Shown here: positions 41,098-48,474 of the stretch, in pieces
How positions within the stretch are numbered: the stretch's first letter is position 1
Layout: every line of letters starts with the position of its first letter
Origin: Thioclava electrotropha
GTDB taxonomy: Bacteria; Pseudomonadota; Alphaproteobacteria; Rhodobacterales; Rhodobacteraceae
Length of the DNA: 64,000 bases
Assembly: GCF_002085925.2 (NCBI RefSeq)
Contig: NZ_CP053562.1
Span: 786,001 to 850,000, forward strand
Reading direction: 5' to 3'
Translations under genes and position numbers: made by a program
Notes under the pieces: model-generated
Seen by the model: only the letters and a program-made list of their open reading frames with translations
Told to the model about the DNA's origin: nothing
The model's database searches: none

Positions 41098-42438
41098 TCA
41101 GGATGTCGCCGCACTCAGCGGCAGCTGTAGGCTGACCTCGAGGCCGGAGTCGCGACCGCTCGGCGGGGATGTCAGCGAGAGCGGGCTACCGATCCGCTCC
41201 GCGATGACGGCGACGATGGCGAGGCCCAATCCGCTGCCATCATTCGTGCTGCCGGCGCGCTCGAACCGCGCGGTCAGGCGCGCGAGGGTCTCCTGCGGAA
41301 TGACAGGCCCGGCATTCGTCACGGTGAAAACGCCTTTCGCAGTCAGGCGCACCGTAACCGGTTCGTCCTGCGCCCCATGCTTCAGCGCGTTCTCGATCAG
41401 GTTCCGACACAGGATGCCGAAAGCATCGGGATCGAGATCCGAGATGACAGGCGTCTCCGGCAGCTCCAGAGCGATACGCCCGGGATCGAAGCCGCGCGCG
41501 AGGTCTTCGACGATCAGGCGGGCGGCGACCCGCAGGTCCGAGCTGCGCTCAAGCCGCAAAGGCCCGCCTTCCGCGCGGGCGAGTTGCAGCAGACGTTCCG
41601 AGAGCCGCGTGAGACGTTTGAGCGTCGCCTCGATATCGGCGGCGCGTGTCTTCGCGACAGGGTCGGTGGTTTCCGCGCTCAGACGCTGTGTCTGCGCGAT
41701 GGCGCCCGCAAGGGGCGTGCGCAATTCATGCGCGGCGTTGGAGGCGAAGCTTCGCTCGGCCTCGAACCCTTCGCGCAACCGCCCGAGAAGATTGTTGAGC
41801 GTGGCGGCGACCGGAGAAATTTCGGTCTGCAGATCGTCGGTCGGAATGGGGGTGAGATCGCGGGCGCTGCGCGCCTCTAGACTGGTTCGGAACCGCCGCA
41901 TCGGCCCGAGATTGGTCCGCACCGCCAGCACGACCGCCGCGAAGGCGAGCGGGATCACGATCAGCAGAGGCAGACCAAGGCCAAGCTCCACCTCTCGCGC
42001 GACCTTCGCACGATGCGCGAGCGGTTCCGCGACGGTGATCCGGATCGTGTCCTGAAGGGCGGCATCGCTATAGAGCCGGTGGGTGGCCGTCTGGCTGAAC
42101 CCCCGTCCGTCATAGGCGGGGAAGACGGACGGATCGGCCGCATGGGACTGAAGAAGAATGTGCCCCTCCGCGTCCCGCACGATATAGGTGAAGAATTCCT
42201 CGTGGTTGCGCAGCCTCGCAAGACGCTGTGTCGTGTTGTTGCCGTCGCGGTTCACGATATCCATGACCGCGAGGGGCAGGATCCTCTGCGCCGTTTCCTG
42301 AAGCGTGGAGTCGAAGACCTCGCTCATCTCCTTGCGCACGATCAGCGCGGTGACGGTTGCCGCTGCGATCCACATCAGCGCCAGAACGACCCCGAGCGAA
42401 AGCCCCAGACGGGCCTGAAGGCTTCGCGGCAATCTCAT
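41098..42438 (-). CDS. Sensor histidine kinase of the PepSY/cytochrome locus
   Basis: This 446-residue membrane kinase has two membrane helices (about 9-33 and 145-167) flanking a periplasmic sensor of about 110 residues. A HAMP-like segment (about 170-220), the H-box FASNAAHELRTPLAGAI (His near 240), N-box CRNLIENALKHG and G-box GSGLGLAIV follow. The layout matches QseC/TctE-type kinases. The ATG at 42438 overlaps the stop of the response regulator gene by four bases. It should sense an envelope signal and phosphorylate that regulator. Confidence 0.9.
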   Translation of the reverse strand: MRLPRSLQARLGLSLGVVLALMWIAAATVTALIVRKEMSEVFDSTLQETAQRILPLAVMDIVNRDGNNTTQRLARLRNHEEFFTYIVRDAEGHILLQSHAADPSVFPAYDGRGFSQTATHRLYSDAALQDTIRITVAEPLAHRAKVAREVELGLGLPLLIVIPLAFAAVVLAVRTNLGPMRRFRTSLEARSARDLTPIPTDDLQTEISPVAATLNNLLGRLREGFEAERSFASNAAHELRTPLAGAIAQTQRLSAETTDPVAKTRAADIEATLKRLTRLSERLLQLARAEGGPLRLERSSDLRVAARLIVEDLARGFDPGRIALELPETPVISDLDPDAFGILCRNLIENALKHGAQDEPVTVRLTAKGVFTVTNAGPVIPQETLARLTARFERAGSTNDGSGLGLAIVAVIAERIGSPLSLTSPPSGRDSGLEVSLQLPLSAATS

Positions 42439-43094
42439 GCCTTGCCCAGCCTGTAGCCAAGACCGCGTTCGGTCTCGATCACATGGGCACCGAGTTTCTT
42501 GCGCAGGCGGCTGACATGGACCTCGATCGTGTTGCTCTCCACCTCCGCGTCGAAGGCATAGAGTTTCTCTTCGAGCTGGGCTTTGGACAGCAATTGGCCG
42601 GGGCGCGAGAGGAACGCCTCGAACAGGGCCCATTCGCGTGCGGTCAGTTGCACGGGCTTGCCGTCGCGCAGGATGCTGCGCGCGGCAAGGTCGATCTCGA
42701 GCCCGGCATGGGTCACGATCGGGTTCGGATTGCCGCTGTAGCGTCGCGCGACCGAGCCGATGCGCGCGGAGAGTTCCGCGAGATCGAAGGGCTTCACGAG
42801 ATAGTCGTCGGCGCCCGCGTTCAGCCCCTCGATCCGGTCCGAGACCTGATCGAGCGCGGTCATGATGATCACGGGGGTCACATCGCCCCGGCTGCGCAGC
42901 GACTTCAGAAAGCCGATGCCGCGGCCATCGGGAAGCATGAGATCGAGCAGGACGAGATCATAGCCGGTGCTGCGGACCGACGCACCCGCCTCGTCGAGAC
43001 GCGTGACCCAGTCCACCGAGTGGCCGTCGCTCGCGATCTGGTCGCGCACCGCGGTGCCCAGAATAGTGTCGTCCTCGATCAGCAGGATGCGCAT
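42435..43094 (-). CDS. OmpR-family response regulator
   Basis: This 219-residue protein has a receiver domain (1-115) with acidic pocket EDD and phosphoacceptor Asp in LVLLDLMLPDG (about 51), and Lys in VKPFDLAEL. An OmpR/PhoB winged helix follows (about 125-217, with LTAREWALFEAF). MRILLIEDD at 43094 is the standard N-terminus. It is divergent from the first PepSY gene, and a four-element repeat site begins 45 bases upstream of its start. A matching site precedes the second PepSY gene, so it probably controls both and itself. Confidence 0.92.
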   Translation of the reverse strand: MRILLIEDDTILGTAVRDQIASDGHSVDWVTRLDEAGASVRSTGYDLVLLDLMLPDGRGIGFLKSLRSRGDVTPVIIMTALDQVSDRIEGLNAGADDYLVKPFDLAELSARIGSVARRYSGNPNPIVTHAGLEIDLAARSILRDGKPVQLTAREWALFEAFLSRPGQLLSKAQLEEKLYAFDAEVESNTIEVHVSRLRKKLGAHVIETERGLGYRLGKA

Positions 43095-43138
43095 GTTGGT
43101 CCCATCTCTTATCCGTTGCCCTGTCTTCACCTGCCCGG

Positions 43139-43187
43139 CTGACACCAAGCTGACGTTGCGCGCGATGCGGCTTCAGGTTCCCGTCAG
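43139..43187. promoter_or_regulatory. Candidate response-regulator operator, site 1
   Basis: Two direct CTGAC copies 11 bases apart (43139, 43150) are followed after 17 bases by two NTCAG copies 11 bases apart (TTCAG 43172, GTCAG 43183). This makes an inverted pair of direct-repeat arms. Spacing of 11 suits tandem binding of OmpR-type monomers. It lies 51 bases before the first PepSY gene and 44 bases before the divergent regulator gene. Site 2 at 44305 has exactly the same geometry. Confidence 0.65.
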
Positions 43188-43238
43188 ATTGATCGCCCAT
43201 GAAAGGTGCAGAGTTGGCCACGAACAGGAGTTTGGCCC

Positions 43239-43556
43239 ATGAAGAAGACAGTGACAATTCTCGCCTTTCTCGCGGTGCTTCCGGCTGGAATGGCTCTGGC
43301 CGATGATGACTGTTTCGTGCCGATGGCGGATTGGCAGCCGCGCGATGCCGTGGCCCAACTCGCCGAAGAGAACGGCTGGACGGTGCGCCGCATCAAGATC
43401 GATGACGGCTGCTACGAGATCGACGGCACCGACGCGCAGGGCCGCCAGCTCGAAGTGACGGTTCATCCTTCGACGCTCCAGATTCTCGAGGTCGAATATG
43501 AGGGCGATGAACATGGTCGGTCCCGCGAAGATCGTGAAGGAGACAAACATGACTGA
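43239..43556 (+). CDS. Secreted PepSY-domain protein, first copy
   Basis: This 105-residue protein has a Sec signal peptide (about 1-21, ending ALA) and one PepSY domain (DAVAQLAEENGWTVRRIKIDDGCYEIDG). It has two cysteines, at the mature N-terminus and in DDGCYE, absent from the second copy; they could form a disulfide. CAGGAG precedes the ATG. Its end overlaps the cytochrome b start by eight bases. Divergent from the two-component genes. PepSY proteins near ApbE and cytochrome b genes are typical of extracytoplasmic redox loci, but their exact job is unknown. Confidence 0.83.
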   Translation: MKKTVTILAFLAVLPAGMALADDDCFVPMADWQPRDAVAQLAEENGWTVRRIKIDDGCYEIDGTDAQGRQLEVTVHPSTLQILEVEYEGDEHGRSREDREGDKHD

Positions 43557-44226
43557 AGCAGCATTTCACGACACGACGAATTCCGGCGGTAGCTCCGGAG
43601 GCAAGGTGCGGGTCTGGGATCCGCTGGTGCGGATTTTCCACTGGGGTCTCGTTGCGGCTTTCGCCACGGCTTGGTTCACGGCTGACGAGTTGCAGCCGGT
43701 GCATGAGATCGCAGGCTACACCGTCGCCGGGCTGGTCGCATTCCGGCTGATCTGGGGGCTCGTGGGCGGGCGCTATGCCCGGTTCACCCAGTTCCTCAGA
43801 GGGCCCGGGCAGACGCTGTCCTATCTTGGCGACATGCTCCGCGGCAAAGAGCGTCGCTATCTCGGCCACAACCCTGCGGGGGCGCTGATGATCGTGGCGC
43901 TGCTGATCTCGCTGTCGGGCACCGCCTTTACCGGCTGGCTGATGGCGGAACCCACGCGCGTGGCGATGCTTCCCGCGCTGCCGCAGATCGTGACCCCCGC
44001 CTTCGCGGACGAGGATGGCGAATACGGTGAATACGGCGAGGGCGCGGAAGGCGAAGGCAACGAGGCGCTGGAAGAGCTGCACGAGGTTCTCGCCAATCTG
44101 GTCCTGCTGCTCGTGGCGCTGCATGTCGCCGGTGTGGTTCTGGCCTCCTTCCGGCATCGCGAAAACCTCGCGCGGTCGATGCTGACCGGCGACAAGCGTG
44201 GGCCTGAACCCGGCGATATCGCCTGA
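43549..44226 (+). CDS. Cytochrome b561-type membrane protein
   Basis: This 225-residue di-heme cytochrome b family protein has four membrane helices. Candidate heme ligands are in VRIFHWGL (helix 1), LQPVHEIAGY (helix 2 start) and the late ELHEVLANLVLLLVALHVAG. Between helices 3 and 4 is an acidic, Gly-rich insert (EDGEYGEYGEGAEGEGNE) not usual in the family. AAGGAG precedes the ATG at 43549, which lies inside the end of the PepSY gene. It should exchange electrons between the quinone pool or the flavoprotein and periplasmic partners. Confidence 0.88.
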   Translation: MTEAAFHDTTNSGGSSGGKVRVWDPLVRIFHWGLVAAFATAWFTADELQPVHEIAGYTVAGLVAFRLIWGLVGGRYARFTQFLRGPGQTLSYLGDMLRGKERRYLGHNPAGALMIVALLISLSGTAFTGWLMAEPTRVAMLPALPQIVTPAFADEDGEYGEYGEGAEGEGNEALEELHEVLANLVLLLVALHVAGVVLASFRHRENLARSMLTGDKRGPEPGDIA

Positions 44227-44273
44227 CGATTCCCTTTCACATCGCCAAGGCCGTTTGTCCCGCGGCCTCACCT

Positions 44274-44303
44274 GGCCCCGCCCTCACAAGGCGGGGCCTT
44301 TTT
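44274..44303 (+). terminator. Rho-independent terminator after cytochrome b
   Basis: A perfect nine-base stem GGCCCCGCC/GGCGGGGCC (44274-44282, 44290-44298) with a seven-base loop is followed by TTTTT. It ends the PepSY-cytochrome b transcript. The next operator starts two bases later, so the following genes form a separate transcription unit. Confidence 0.9.
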
Positions 44304-44304
44304 C

Positions 44305-44353
44305 CTGACGCGAAGCTGAAGCGGAAACTCTCTGCCCGTCAGGAAGCGCTCAG
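44305..44353. promoter_or_regulatory. Candidate response-regulator operator, site 2
   Basis: CTGAC (44305) and CTGAA (44316), then 17 bases, then GTCAG (44338) and CTCAG (44349). Spacings of 11, 17 and 11 are identical to site 1, and the left arms CTGACGCGAAGCTGAA and CTGACACCAAGCTGAC agree at 13 of 16 bases. It lies 47 bases before the second PepSY gene, directly after a terminator. Confidence 0.65.
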
Positions 44354-44400
44354 GTCCGCTGCCCAGATTGTCGCTAGCAGATGAAAAAGGAGACCCTGCC

Positions 44401-44799
44401 ATGCGAAAGATCCTGACCGCACTTCCCCTCATCGCCCTGCTGCCTGCGGGGATGGCTCTGGCCGACGACGACTATGAAAAGTCTTCGCGCGGCGAAGGAA
44501 TGTCCCGCGACGCGGTGATGCAGATCGCGCGCGAGAACGGCTGGACTGTCCACGAAATCGAGATGGAAGACGGCCGATACGAGATCGAGGGCCGCGACCG
44601 CGACGGGCGGAAAATCGAAGCCAAGCTCGATCCGGCGACGCAGCGCCTCATCACGTCGGACTATGACGACGATGACGAGGACGACGATGATGACGACTAC
44701 GGCGCATCGGCGCGCAACCCGGCCCCCGCCGGCACGGTCGCCCCGCCGAAAAACGGTCTCTTCGGTGACGGTGCTCCGCCCAAGGTTCAGGTGAACTGA
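44401..44799 (+). CDS. Secreted PepSY-domain protein with an acidic tract, second copy
   Basis: This 132-residue paralogue of the 43239 product shares a near-identical signal peptide core (LLPAGMALADDD) and ARENGWTVHEIEMEDGRYEIEG. After the PepSY domain a run of Asp and Glu (about residues 82-95) could bind cations. The tail is Pro-rich (about 100-132). AAAGGAGA lies upstream of the ATG. It heads the second transcription unit of the locus and is preceded by operator site 2. Confidence 0.83.
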   Translation: MRKILTALPLIALLPAGMALADDDYEKSSRGEGMSRDAVMQIARENGWTVHEIEMEDGRYEIEGRDRDGRKIEAKLDPATQRLITSDYDDDDEDDDDDDYGASARNPAPAGTVAPPKNGLFGDGAPPKVQVN

Positions 44800-44838: not shown

Positions 44839-45309
44839 ATGAAATCTCTTCTCGCAACATTGGCGCTGAGCACGGCGCTGACTATTCCCGCGCTCGCATC
44901 CGCGCAGCCCGTCACGCTCAAGACCACGCTGAACAACTACGGCGGCGACGGCGCTTATCTCGCGCTCTATGTCACCGACCCGTCGGGCGCCTATGCGGGC
45001 AGCCTCTGGATGGCGGGCGGCAAGTCCAAATATTACGAGCATCTCCGCGACTGGTATCGCGCGACCGGCGGCGATCCGACGCAGATCAACGGCATCACCG
45101 GCGCAAGCGTAGGCGCAGGCCGGACGCTCGAGATCACGCTCGATCTTGCGGATGCGCTCTTCGATGCGGGTTACACGCTGCATATCGACGCCGCGGTCGA
45201 GGACATGCGCGACAGCCCCAACGAGGTCGCCGTGCCGCTCACGACCGAGGGCGCGGGCACGCCGGTTCCGGGGCGTCGCTACGTCTCCGATTTCACCTAC
45301 GACATGTGA
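44839..45309 (+). CDS. Secreted DUF2271 protein with a flavinylation-like motif
   Basis: This 156-residue protein has a signal peptide (about 1-22, ending ASA) and a DUF2271 domain. NGITGAS at about residues 90-96 fits the ApbE target consensus D/N-x-x-S/T-G-A-S/T, so the Ser at its end may carry covalent FMN. The gene lies between a PepSY gene and a PepSY_TM-flavodoxin-FNR fusion, with apbE two genes downstream. A role as periplasmic flavin electron carrier is inferred; the domain's function is not established. Confidence 0.82.
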   Translation: MKSLLATLALSTALTIPALASAQPVTLKTTLNNYGGDGAYLALYVTDPSGAYAGSLWMAGGKSKYYEHLRDWYRATGGDPTQINGITGASVGAGRTLEITLDLADALFDAGYTLHIDAAVEDMRDSPNEVAVPLTTEGAGTPVPGRRYVSDFTYDM

Positions 45310-45320
45310 GGTGACAGGCC

Positions 45321-47528
45321 ATGATCCGCGCGTTTCATCGCTGGCCGGGGCTGATTGCCCTGGCGCTTGTCACGGTGCTGGCGCTCAGTGGCGCGGTGCT
45401 CGCGGTCTTTCCGGTTGCGGAGCGGATCGCGGCACCGCAGGCAGGGGCGGAGCTCAGCGTTGCGACCCTCGCTGAGCGCATCCAGACGATCTATCCGGGT
45501 CTCGAACAAATCCGGCGCGCACCGTCGGGGCGGATCACGGCCTATTGGTTCGAAGCCGGACAGCCCGGCGCGGCGGTGATAGATCCCACCACGGGGCGTG
45601 GCGTCGCATCGGCTGACCCGAATGCCTTTCAGCGTTGGCTGACCAACCTTCACCGCTCCCTCTTTCTCGGCGATCCGGGCCGCGTTGCAAGCGCGCTGGG
45701 CTCCGTCGCGATGCTGGTGCTCTCGGTCTCCGGCGCCCTGCTCGTCGCGCGGCGTGTCGGCGGCTGGCGGAACTGGTTCTCGCGTTTGCGCGGGCCGCTC
45801 GCCGGGCGGCTCCACGTCGAGATCGCGCGCGTCGCGGTGATCGGCCTGCTTCTCTCCTCCGCCACGTCTCTGTGGATGACGGCCTCGACCTTCGAGCTGA
45901 TCCCCGATGGCGGGCCCTCGCTCGGCATCCCCGCCGAGGTGAGCGGCCAAACTGACGTGCCGCTTGCCGGTCTCGCGATGCTCGGCGACACGCCGGTCAA
46001 GGAACTGCGGAGCCTGAGTTTTCCCTATGACGGCGATGCCACCGATGTTTTCACGCTGAAGACCGATCGCGGCACCGGCTATCTCGATCAGGGCACCGGC
46101 GACGTACTCGCCTGGGCGGACCTGACCGCATGGCAACGCATCTCGGAAACCATCTACATGCTGCATACGGGGCAGGGCGCTGCGCTGCTTGGCGCGGTGC
46201 TGGGTCTCATGGCGCTGGGCGTGCCGGTGATGGGGCTCACCGGCCTGATCATTTGGCTGGCCGGACGGCGCGGTCGCCCGCGCATCCGGGCCAACCAACC
46301 AGCCGCGCGGGCGGAGACGATCCTCCTCGTCGGCAGCGAGAGCGGCAGCACCTGGGGTTTTGCCGCGACCCTGCACGCGGCGCTCCGGGCTGCGGGCCAG
46401 AGTGTTCATATCGCGCCGATGTCCTCCTTCGCCCCCGAGCGCTACGCCCGGGCCGATCGGATCATCGTGCTCGCGGCCACTTATGGCGACGGGGCGGAGC
46501 CCAGCTCCGCCAAAGGCTTTCTGACGAAACTCGACGCCTGCTCCGATGTGCTGGATATCCCGATTGCCGTGCTCGGTTTCGGGGACCGGAGTTTCCCTGC
46601 CTATTGCGCCTATGCCCAGACGATTGCCGACACCGTGGAGGCGAAAGGGTGGCCGGTTCTTCTGCCCTATGACACGATCGACCGTCAGTCGCCGCAGGCC
46701 TTCGCGCGCTGGGGGCAGGCGCTGGGCGCAGTGCTCGGGATCGTGCTCGATCTGCATCACCAACCGACGCCCCCTGCCACGACCGAACTCACGCTCCAGT
46801 CGCGGCGCGATTATGGGGCGGACGTGCAGGCGCCGACGTCGATCCTGCGCTTTTCCCTGCCGCGCGCCACGTTCTGGCAGCGCCTGACGGGGGCTGGCTT
46901 CACGCGGTTTGCCGCAGGAGATCTGATCGGGATCCTGCCGGAAGGGGCGCCGACACCGCGCCTCTATTCGCTCGCGTCGTCACGCCGCGACGGGTTTCTG
47001 GAGATCGTGGTCAAGAAACATCCCGGCGGGTTGTGTTCGGGTCAACTGACGGCGCTCGAGCCGGGCGAGAGCGTCCGCGCCTTCGTTCGACGCAACCCCG
47101 CCTTCCGGCCGGACCGTTCGCGCGCGCCGCTGATCCTGATCGGCGCGGGCACGGGGATCGGCCCTCTGGTGGGCTTCGTGCGCGAAAACGAGCAACGGCG
47201 CCCGATCCACCTCTTCTTCGGGATGCGCGATCCGCAAAGCGATTTCCTCTATGCGCAGGAGATCGGCGGGTGGAAGGACGAAGGCCGTCTGTCGCGGCTC
47301 GTGACCTCGGTCTCGCGCGGCCAGCGACCGCGCTATGTTCAGGATGCGATGCGCGCCGATGCCCCCGAACTTGTCCGGCTCGTGCAGAGCGGTGCGCGGA
47401 TCATGGTGTGCGGCGGGCGGGACATGGCGGCGGGTGTCGCAGAGGCTCTGCATGACATCCTCGCCGCGTCGGGCCTGAGTGCGACCAAACTGAAAACGGA
47501 GGGCCGTTATGTCGAAGACATCTTCTGA
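45321..47528 (+). CDS. PepSY-associated TM protein fused to flavodoxin and FNR domains
   Basis: This 735-residue fusion has a PepSY_TM region with about four membrane helices (first at 9-30, the others about 130-155, 170-192 and 285-312). A flavodoxin-like FMN domain (about 333-475, LLVGSESGSTWGFAATL) and an FNR-type domain (about 490-735) follow; the latter has RLYSLASS for FAD and LIGAGTGIGPLVGFV for NADPH. The order resembles sulfite reductase flavoprotein or cytochrome P450 reductase tethered to a membrane anchor. It likely carries electrons from NADPH to periplasmic acceptors. It overlaps the apbE gene by 20 bases. Confidence 0.9.
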   Translation: MIRAFHRWPGLIALALVTVLALSGAVLAVFPVAERIAAPQAGAELSVATLAERIQTIYPGLEQIRRAPSGRITAYWFEAGQPGAAVIDPTTGRGVASADPNAFQRWLTNLHRSLFLGDPGRVASALGSVAMLVLSVSGALLVARRVGGWRNWFSRLRGPLAGRLHVEIARVAVIGLLLSSATSLWMTASTFELIPDGGPSLGIPAEVSGQTDVPLAGLAMLGDTPVKELRSLSFPYDGDATDVFTLKTDRGTGYLDQGTGDVLAWADLTAWQRISETIYMLHTGQGAALLGAVLGLMALGVPVMGLTGLIIWLAGRRGRPRIRANQPAARAETILLVGSESGSTWGFAATLHAALRAAGQSVHIAPMSSFAPERYARADRIIVLAATYGDGAEPSSAKGFLTKLDACSDVLDIPIAVLGFGDRSFPAYCAYAQTIADTVEAKGWPVLLPYDTIDRQSPQAFARWGQALGAVLGIVLDLHHQPTPPATTELTLQSRRDYGADVQAPTSILRFSLPRATFWQRLTGAGFTRFAAGDLIGILPEGAPTPRLYSLASSRRDGFLEIVVKKHPGGLCSGQLTALEPGESVRAFVRRNPAFRPDRSRAPLILIGAGTGIGPLVGFVRENEQRRPIHLFFGMRDPQSDFLYAQEIGGWKDEGRLSRLVTSVSRGQRPRYVQDAMRADAPELVRLVQSGARIMVCGGRDMAAGVAEALHDILAASGLSATKLKTEGRYVEDIF

Positions 47529-48474
47529 TCTGCTGCGCCACGCTTTGCACGGCGCGACCATGGGCACCCGCTGGACCGCCCTGTTCTTCGCACCGCCCGA
47601 GCGCGACCCCGCGCCGATCCAAGCCGCGCTTCAGGCGGCGGTTGCGGCAGTGGATGCGCAGATGTCCACCTGGAAACCGGACAGCGACCTGATGCGGCTC
47701 AACGCGGCTGCGGAAGGCGAGTGGGTGAAGGTGCCCGGGTGTTTGGCCGAAGTGCTCCGTCTCGGGCTGGAGATCGGCAAAGCCTCGGGCGGTGCGTTCG
47801 ATATCGGGCTCGGAGATGCGGTCACGGCTTGGGGCTTCGGTCCCGACGATGCGACTCCCGAGGCGATCCGCGCCGCGATGAGTGTGTCGCGGCAGCCCGC
47901 ATATCAATGGCTCGAGCTCGACCATGACAGCGTGCGCAAGAGCGGCCCCGTGGTGCTGGACCTGAACGGGATCGCGAAAGGCTACGGCGTGGATCGCCTT
48001 GCCGAGACGCTGGCCGCGCAGGGGATCGAGGCCGGTCTTGTCGGGATCGACGGCGAAATGCGGGCCGTGGGGCTCAGGCCCGATGGCAGCCCGTGGACGA
48101 TCGCGGTCGAGAGCCCCGATCCGCTGCGTCGCACGCCGCATTCGATCCTCGCGCTCGAGAACGCATCGGTCGCGACCTCCGGCGATTATCGGCACTGGAT
48201 CGACCTCGGCGCGCGCAGGCTCTCGCATACGATGGATCGTTCGCGTGGTGCGCCCTTGCTGGCATCGCCCGCCTCCGTGACGGTGGTCGCGCGCAGTTGC
48301 GCCGAGGCCGATGGCTGGGCCACCGCGCTCATGGTGCTTGGCCCGGACAAGGGGTTGGAGGTTGCTAGGAAACGCGGCCTCGACGCCCTGTTCCTGATGC
48401 GCGAGGACGACGGGTGCGTGAAAAGCTTCGGGACAGGCGATCTGTTTCCCGAGAGCGTCGCGGCGGCGGTCTAG
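47509..48474 (+). CDS. apbE: FAD:protein FMN transferase (ApbE), second copy
   Basis: This 321-residue ApbE has GATMGTRWTALFF, MSTWKPDSDLMRLN, the DLNGIAKGYGVDRL segment, GLVGIDGEMRAVG and SVATSGDYRHW followed by LSHTMD. Motifs match active ApbE enzymes, with GIDGE in place of the more usual G-x-GG-E. The N-terminus (MSKTSSDLLRHALHGATMGTR) shows no signal peptide. It is the last gene of the second unit and is a different copy from the one at 34822. Likely targets are the DUF2271 protein and perhaps the FMN-binding protein elsewhere. Confidence 0.9.
   Translation: MSKTSSDLLRHALHGATMGTRWTALFFAPPERDPAPIQAALQAAVAAVDAQMSTWKPDSDLMRLNAAAEGEWVKVPGCLAEVLRLGLEIGKASGGAFDIGLGDAVTAWGFGPDDATPEAIRAAMSVSRQPAYQWLELDHDSVRKSGPVVLDLNGIAKGYGVDRLAETLAAQGIEAGLVGIDGEMRAVGLRPDGSPWTIAVESPDPLRRTPHSILALENASVATSGDYRHWIDLGARRLSHTMDRSRGAPLLASPASVTVVARSCAEADGWATALMVLGPDKGLEVARKRGLDALFLMREDDGCVKSFGTGDLFPESVAAAV

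Follow-up and report, generated by a model that had tools for sequence, protein, structure and literature searches.

The two sites described here are probably operators of the response regulator (RR) encoded beside them, each built as a pair of boxes placed head to head, with a gene-proximal arm for activation and a far arm for cooperative binding. We give this reading a probability of about 0.78. Written with 4-base cores, both sites have the form CTGA-N7-CTGA-N19-TCAG-N7-TCAG, at 43139-43187 (site 1) and 44305-44353 (site 2); positions are those of the window, by which we mean the whole 64,000-nucleotide stretch of DNA that was analysed. The genes around the sites, with the source of each assignment, are as follows.

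41098..42438, minus strand: sensor histidine kinase (HK) with 2CSK_N, QseC-like (Pfam, NCBIfam)
42435..43094, minus strand: OmpR/PhoB-family response regulator (RR), PmrA/QseB-like (Pfam, NCBIfam, PDB search)
43239..43556, plus strand: PepSY_2 protein 1, putatively periplasmic (Pfam; location from an N-terminal signal-like stretch)
43549..44226, plus strand: cytochrome b561 (PF01292; Pfam)
44401..44799, plus strand: PepSY_2 protein 2, with an Asp-rich run (Pfam and translation)
44839..45309, plus strand: DUF2271 protein with a TGAS motif (Pfam; motif in the translation)
45321..47528, plus strand: PepSY_TM-flavodoxin-NAD(P) reductase fusion (Pfam)
47509..48474, plus strand: ApbE flavin transferase (Pfam)

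The regulator and its neighbouring genes

The RR belongs to the OmpR/PhoB family, with a receiver domain (PF00072) and a winged-helix domain (Trans_reg_C, PF00486) above the Pfam cut-off. Its best NCBIfam models were PmrA and then QseB, both under cut-off: it scored 207 bits against a cut-off of 330 for the PmrA equivalog (NF007928) and 194 bits against 345 for the QseB equivalog (NF007663). A PDB search gave PmrA/BasR as its closest relative of solved structure, and it is 97% identical to the RR of Thioclava pacifica.

PepSY_TM, ApbE and a DUF2271 protein with an [S/T]GA[S/T] motif occur together here, as in a PepSY-like flavinylation cluster. The motif is the flavinylation motif of DUF2271 proteins (PMC8238504), and the PepSY/DUF2271/ApbE clusters of that paper have the same gene set, including a PepSY_TM protein with an NAD-binding domain; the available text treats the proteins of the clusters, and we found no operator description in it. 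The targets of the two operators would make up a flavin-dependent system that transfers electrons across the membrane to the periplasm, possibly concerned with iron or redox homeostasis, and a dedicated sensor pair is suggested for such a flavin-based system. A Caulobacter PepSY/DUF2271 locus has been linked to iron and Fur (PMC12004947), which is a lead to the signal that may be sensed here and no more. PepSY protein 2 contains an Asp/Glu run, DYDDDDEDDDDDDYG, at 44658-44700 that could bind cations; an acidic loop is also found in the cytochrome b561.

Sequence and geometry of the two sites

By direct reading, site 1 consists of CTGAC (43139-43143), CTGAC (43150-43154), TTCAG (43172-43176) and GTCAG (43183-43187), and site 2 of CTGAC (44305-44309), CTGAA (44316-44320), GTCAG (44338-44342) and CTCAG (44349-44353). 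In both, the inner 5-mers are separated by 17 bases and the 4-base cores by 19. A sequence-only reading had described these pairs of CTGAN and NTCAG repeats across a 17-base gap, and we found the elements exactly where it placed them. On re-reading, two further measurements of it were confirmed: the left arms of the two sites are identical at 13 of 16 bases, and the sites lie 47-51 bases before an ATG (site 1 ends 51 bases before 43239, site 2 47 bases before 44401). All four arms have direct-repeat half-sites 11 bp apart, as in boxes of the PmrA/QseB/BqsR type; the TTAA half-site core of that type is absent, sites 1 and 2 having TCAG/CTGA in its place. The arms, the hairpin before site 2 and the predicted promoter elements discussed below are located as follows.

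43123..43128, minus strand: predicted -10 of the RR-HK operon, GAAGAC; A at 43127 conserved, with a weak match to any -10 consensus; start predicted near 43116
43139..43154, minus strand: site 1 left arm, CTGAC-N6-CTGAC; promoter-proximal box of the RR-HK operon, read on the minus strand
43172..43187, plus strand: site 1 right arm, TTCAG-N6-GTCAG; promoter-proximal box of the PepSY1 gene
43198..43203, plus strand: predicted -10 of PepSY1, CATGAA; conserved A at 43199; start predicted near 43210
44274..44298, plus strand: terminator-like hairpin directly before site 2
44305..44320, unstranded: site 2 left arm, CTGAC-N6-CTGAA; distal and inverted, with apparently no promoter facing it
44338..44353, plus strand: site 2 right arm, GTCAG-N6-CTCAG; promoter-proximal box of PepSY2
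44364..44369, plus strand: predicted -10 of the PepSY2 operon, CAGATT; start predicted near 44376

The strong terminator that had been claimed ahead of site 2 corresponds to this hairpin, which has 9 pairs, all G-C, followed by TTTTT. It is notable for its strength and not for the number of matches, since terminator-like matches in the window number two, which overlap, against a shuffled mean of 1.0 (sd 0.9), a count no greater than chance.

The same reading had set all elements whole helical turns apart, at 11, 22 and 11 bases. The two steps of 11 stand, but the middle 22 varies with the 5-mer taken: centre to centre, the 4-base inner cores are 23 bp apart at gap 19 and 24 bp apart in the gap-20 sites described below. 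Strict helical turns are also weakened by the coexistence of gaps 19 and 20, by a gap of 9 in a second system and by gaps of 28-44 in distant loci. As the middle value depends on the choice of 5-mer, we rejected 11/22/11 phasing as proof and used a comparison of gap classes instead.

Occurrence of the operator across genomes

A scan of the 4.4 Mb genome for the spaced pattern, the check put forward with the sequence-only reading, gave two exact matches at gap 19, sites 1 and 2, and no others; the reversed-pattern control gave 0. We then searched 394 genomes of the family, from 393 genera, for the exact pattern with gaps of 8-38. This gave 172 exact sites in 101/394 genomes, with the reversed control present in 3 genomes. 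Gaps 19 and 20 alone contributed 139 exact sites in 76/394 genomes. The 33 exact sites at other gaps comprised 20 at gap 9 and 13 that were scattered with at most 2 per gap, one of the latter (G308, gap 30) being a third repeat of a gap-19 operator.

Homologues of the RR at E 1e-60 or better were present in 95/394 genomes (112 matches). Gap-19/20 sites and these homologues occurred together in 76 genomes, the RR only in 19, the site only in 0 and neither in 299. With a threshold of at least 52% identity for the RR, the corresponding numbers were 75, 16, 1 and 302, and the sole genome with only a site (G162) has an RR that is 49% identical. Some genomes with only the RR hold sites with 15/16 matches that the exact pattern misses (e.g. 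G021, G082). The claim that the two sites form one regulon is thus supported: they are the only exact sites of their own genome, and every one of the 76 site genomes has the RR.

To place the sites relative to the regulator gene, we took the upstream DNA of 100 of the 112 RR matches, the 12 omitted having 49-54% identity; the stretches were up to 3.4 kb long, and 8 of the 100 were shortened by contig ends, 5 of them to under 1.6 kb. Within 200 bp of the RR start, an operator with gap 19 was present in 62/100, one with gap 20 in 23, a weak one with gap 35 in 1 and none in 14. Operators upstream of the RR were found in 80/82 stretches at 69-100% identity, 3/9 at 60-68% and 2/9 at 52-59%. Loss of the pattern in close relatives had been named as an observation that would count against the idea, and the 80/82 show it to be kept; the two operator-less RRs in this class are L219, with one arm, and L246, with the weak gap-35 pair. 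Among the fetched RR homologues at 52-68% identity, 13/18 had no operator. Because some of these keep a single arm, one dimer can suffice.

In the 100 stretches, a count of arm pairs with at least 15/16 matches at gaps of 0-60 gave 125 for gap 19 and 23 for gap 20; a further 23 were spread over seven other gaps, and many of these were overlapping repeats of the same operators. Shuffling in two-base blocks gave a mean of 0.05 arm pairs at all those gaps together. Five distant loci (RR identity 56-80%) have the same arms at gaps 28, 30, 33, 37 and 44. Because of these loci, the fixed gap is a property of a clade, and a looser arrangement also exists. At L202, L222 and L232 the second sites extend outwards by a third CTGA repeat, complete or nearly so, at a distance of 11 bp, making five elements in total.

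Constraint on the length of the spacer

Pairwise identity over the inner 13 bp of the spacer was 0.28 in the 62 first sites with gap 19, against 0.29 after shuffling, while the arms had 0.76-0.77. Over the 85 first sites, the gap had an SD of 0.44, compared with 7.2 for the distance to the RR start. Since spacer identity is at the random level and the gap SD is small, what is kept in first sites is the length of the spacer and not its sequence. The 63 second sites, which were sought at gaps 19 and 20 only, all had gap 19, with pairwise identities of 0.87 for the left arm, 0.78 for the right arm and 0.47 for the spacer. In second sites the spacer beside the left arm is conserved (AAGCaGaAAtcgC), unlike in first sites.

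A second PepSY system has the same layout with a shorter spacer. In the genome studied, a four-element operator with gap 9 (G000:C1:4120789-4120827; L086 1501-1539) is flanked by PepSY genes that diverge from it, and one of these genes belongs to a PepSY-RR2-HK operon. We checked 18 gap-9 loci: 17 came from the survey, which had given 20, and G009 supplied the other. A homologue of RR2 (at least 55% identity) lay within 1.5 kb in 16/18 of them, two of these 16 matches being fragments at the locus end, compared with 0/11 loci with other gaps. Thirteen bases outside the operator, the 16 RR2-linked loci have an A on the right side in 14 cases and on the left side in 15. Two different regulators therefore share the four-element layout, with gaps about one helical turn apart (19/20 versus 9), which supports phasing without dependence on the choice of 5-mer. 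The two gap classes also make contact between dimers on DNA directly testable.

The recognition helix and the half-site

The recognition helix of the RR is HVSRLRKK, with His-Val-Ser-Arg at the positions of PmrA His193-Asn196. In a PmrA model, bases are contacted by His193 and His195; the PhoB residue equivalent to PmrA Asn196 is Arg201, which bonds guanine (PMC3973317). We compared the helices of 111 aligned RR loci, some of which represent one species twice. At 54% identity or more there are 37 loci. Arg occupies the Asn196 position in 33 of them, and the 250 bp upstream contain an exact arm in 30 of the 33. The other four of the 37 (L016, L018, L019 and L020, of the same genus as the window and 72-75% identical) have Ser-His; none of the four has a paired operator, and two keep a single arm. 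We found no DUF2271 gene in the genomes of these four Ser-His loci, nor in G014, though the operator is kept there, nor in G002.

Below 54% identity there were 74 loci. The 42 with His at the Ser position had 0 arms and 6 TTAA boxes. Just 3 of the 25 with Arg had an arm, so having Arg in the helix is insufficient to predict TCAG arms. Within the close RR clade, the helix change from His-His/His-Asn to Ser-Arg goes with a change of half-site from TTAA to TCAG. The genome studied also has an RR paralogue with 49% identity (L267 2520-2590, G000:C1:978019 onward) that adjoins a DsbD-like gene; 34 bp from the start of the paralogue lies a single box of the classical form CTTAAG-N5-CTTAAG. This paralogue is one of the six loci counted above with a TTAA box.

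A conserved A outside the arms and predicted promoters

After removal of near-duplicates (leaving 58 gap-19 first sites and 56 second sites), isolated conserved bases stood out 12 bases outside the operator. An A is found 12 bases beyond the outermost TCAG in 83/85 first sites, on the side away from the RR, and downstream of 63/63 second sites. On the RR-facing side of first sites, the A is present in 80/85. The far-side genes of first sites encode PepSY or DUF2271 proteins in most of the loci mapped, which cover part of the 85. Together with adjacent bases the A forms CAGATT in second sites and CAT in first sites; second sites also have a CA step at offsets 22-23, as would be expected of a -10 element and a transcription start. 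The conserved A is accordingly placed by us in a predicted -10 element. The predicted hexamers are weak, strong conservation being confined to their A; the window has 0 consensus sigma-70 promoters against a shuffled mean of 0.2, so that zero is expected by chance.

Activator boxes of the PhoB/PmrA type have a characteristic position relative to the -10. In the PhoB type, a box lies about 10 bp before the -10 and there is no consensus -35; the conserved A fits this distance, the -10 here being a prediction. If the A does belong to the -10, the TCAG repeats would occupy the PhoB/PmrA activator position, and we infer an activator role from this box position. The symmetry of the first site and the asymmetry of the second would then be explained, leaving the far arm of the second site unexplained by any promoter. 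An own promoter for the left arm of second sites was considered and rejected, as base 12 upstream is A in only 6/63. Bidirectional promoters alone were likewise rejected as the explanation of the operator, as they do not cover site 2. The claim of autoregulation gains support from the sequence pattern at the regulator gene itself, where the operators lie within 200 bp upstream of 80/82 RRs at 69-100% identity and the RR-side A recurs. Together with the occurrence of the sites, this pattern supports one regulon with probable autoregulation.

Proposed working of the operators and alternative explanations

We infer binding by the RR, activation, contact between dimers and the kind of signal sensed. 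In each operator, two complete direct-repeat boxes would face each other head to head, with 19 bp of spacer between them, and each box, with its two half-sites 11 bp apart, would seat one RR dimer. The gene-proximal box, which reads [T/G]TCAG-N6-[G/C]TCAG in the direction of its gene, would work as an activator box of the PhoB/PmrA type and end about 10 bp ahead of the -10. Site 1 would be a divergent switch, one box driving PepSY1-cytochrome b561 and the other RR-HK, giving positive autoregulation; site 2 would drive PepSY2-DUF2271-flavoreductase-ApbE. Because apparently no promoter faces the far box of site 2, retention of this box would need a different reason, of which the likeliest is that the two facing dimers touch and bind cooperatively. 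Two facing dimer pairs, as proposed in the sequence-only reading, are favoured by the orientation of the arms, the fixed length of the spacer and the PmrA-like family of the RR.

The arms might instead be independent boxes, each working for its own promoter where promoters diverge, with site 2 a duplicated copy, its far arm an additive booster and the dimers not in contact. Single exact arms that stand partnerless before the RR in L256, L262 and L265 (52-60% identity) would fit this, as would the gaps of 28-44 in distant relatives and the extra upstream pentamers of BqsR promoters, which are additive and not essential (PMC4682146). Nevertheless we think it unlikely: 85/86 paired sites within 200 bp of the RR have gap 19 or 20 around a spacer of random sequence, a fixed gap that boosters acting alone would not need, and the left arm of second sites is the best conserved (0.87 pairwise) though apparently no promoter faces it.

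A repressing RR, with dimers on the far and near arms locking RNA polymerase out in negative autoregulation, has a precedent in that some response regulators both activate and repress (PMC7380067). Given that the near arm is at the PhoB/PmrA activator-box position relative to the predicted -10, we judge this improbable. It is highly improbable that the palindrome is recognised by some regulator other than the adjacent RR. Its size could suit other families, but each of the 76 genomes with sites has the RR (E 1e-60 or better), Arg in the recognition helix accompanies the arms (30/33 for RRs at 54% identity or more), and the sister gap-9 operator is within 1.5 kb of another OmpR-family RR in 16/18 loci.

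Returning to paired operators of the adjacent RR, the rule CTGA-N7-CTGA-N19/20-TCAG-N7-TCAG, with an A 12 bases on, finds the regulon, its predicted promoters and probable starts in 76/394 genomes. It is conceivable, at slightly less than even odds, that a dimer-of-dimers locked head to head at a fixed gap is the working unit, a distinct design within the OmpR/PhoB family. If so, there would be a contact surface between facing dimers, of which we met no description for this family.

Comparison with known operators

The pho box of PhoB has GTCA repeats about 10 bp before the -10, and multiple pho boxes stand in tandem. The sites described here likewise have their repeats about 10 bp before a predicted -10, whereas their boxes are head to head.

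In the PmrA (BasR) box, half-sites CTTAAG/XTTAAT have five bases between them and are bound head to tail (PMC3973317). The RR here is also of the OmpR family, and the half-sites of each arm are also in direct repeat 11 bp apart; unlike PmrA, the core is TCAG and not TTAA, the recognition helix has Ser-Arg instead of His-Asn, and two boxes face each other at a fixed gap. The BqsR (CarR) operator of Pseudomonas, TTAAG-N6-TTAAG, has similar 5-mer repeats with a 6-bp spacer; its most downstream repeat overlaps the -35, and extra upstream repeats raise output (PMC4682146). In contrast to the sites here, the extra pentamers are further 6-bp-spacer repeats, and the available text describes no inverted pair at a fixed gap.

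Inverted or head-to-head binding of half-sites is found in other OmpR-family regulators. For HP1043, a head-to-head model places one dimer on a repeat that can be read either as direct or as inverted (PMC8345958), and AgrR has a single inverted repeat with extra half-sites (PMC7380067). Here, unlike in both, the inversion is between two entire direct-repeat boxes. In a literature search judged mostly by titles and abstract openings and including few subscription journals, we recognised no such operator.
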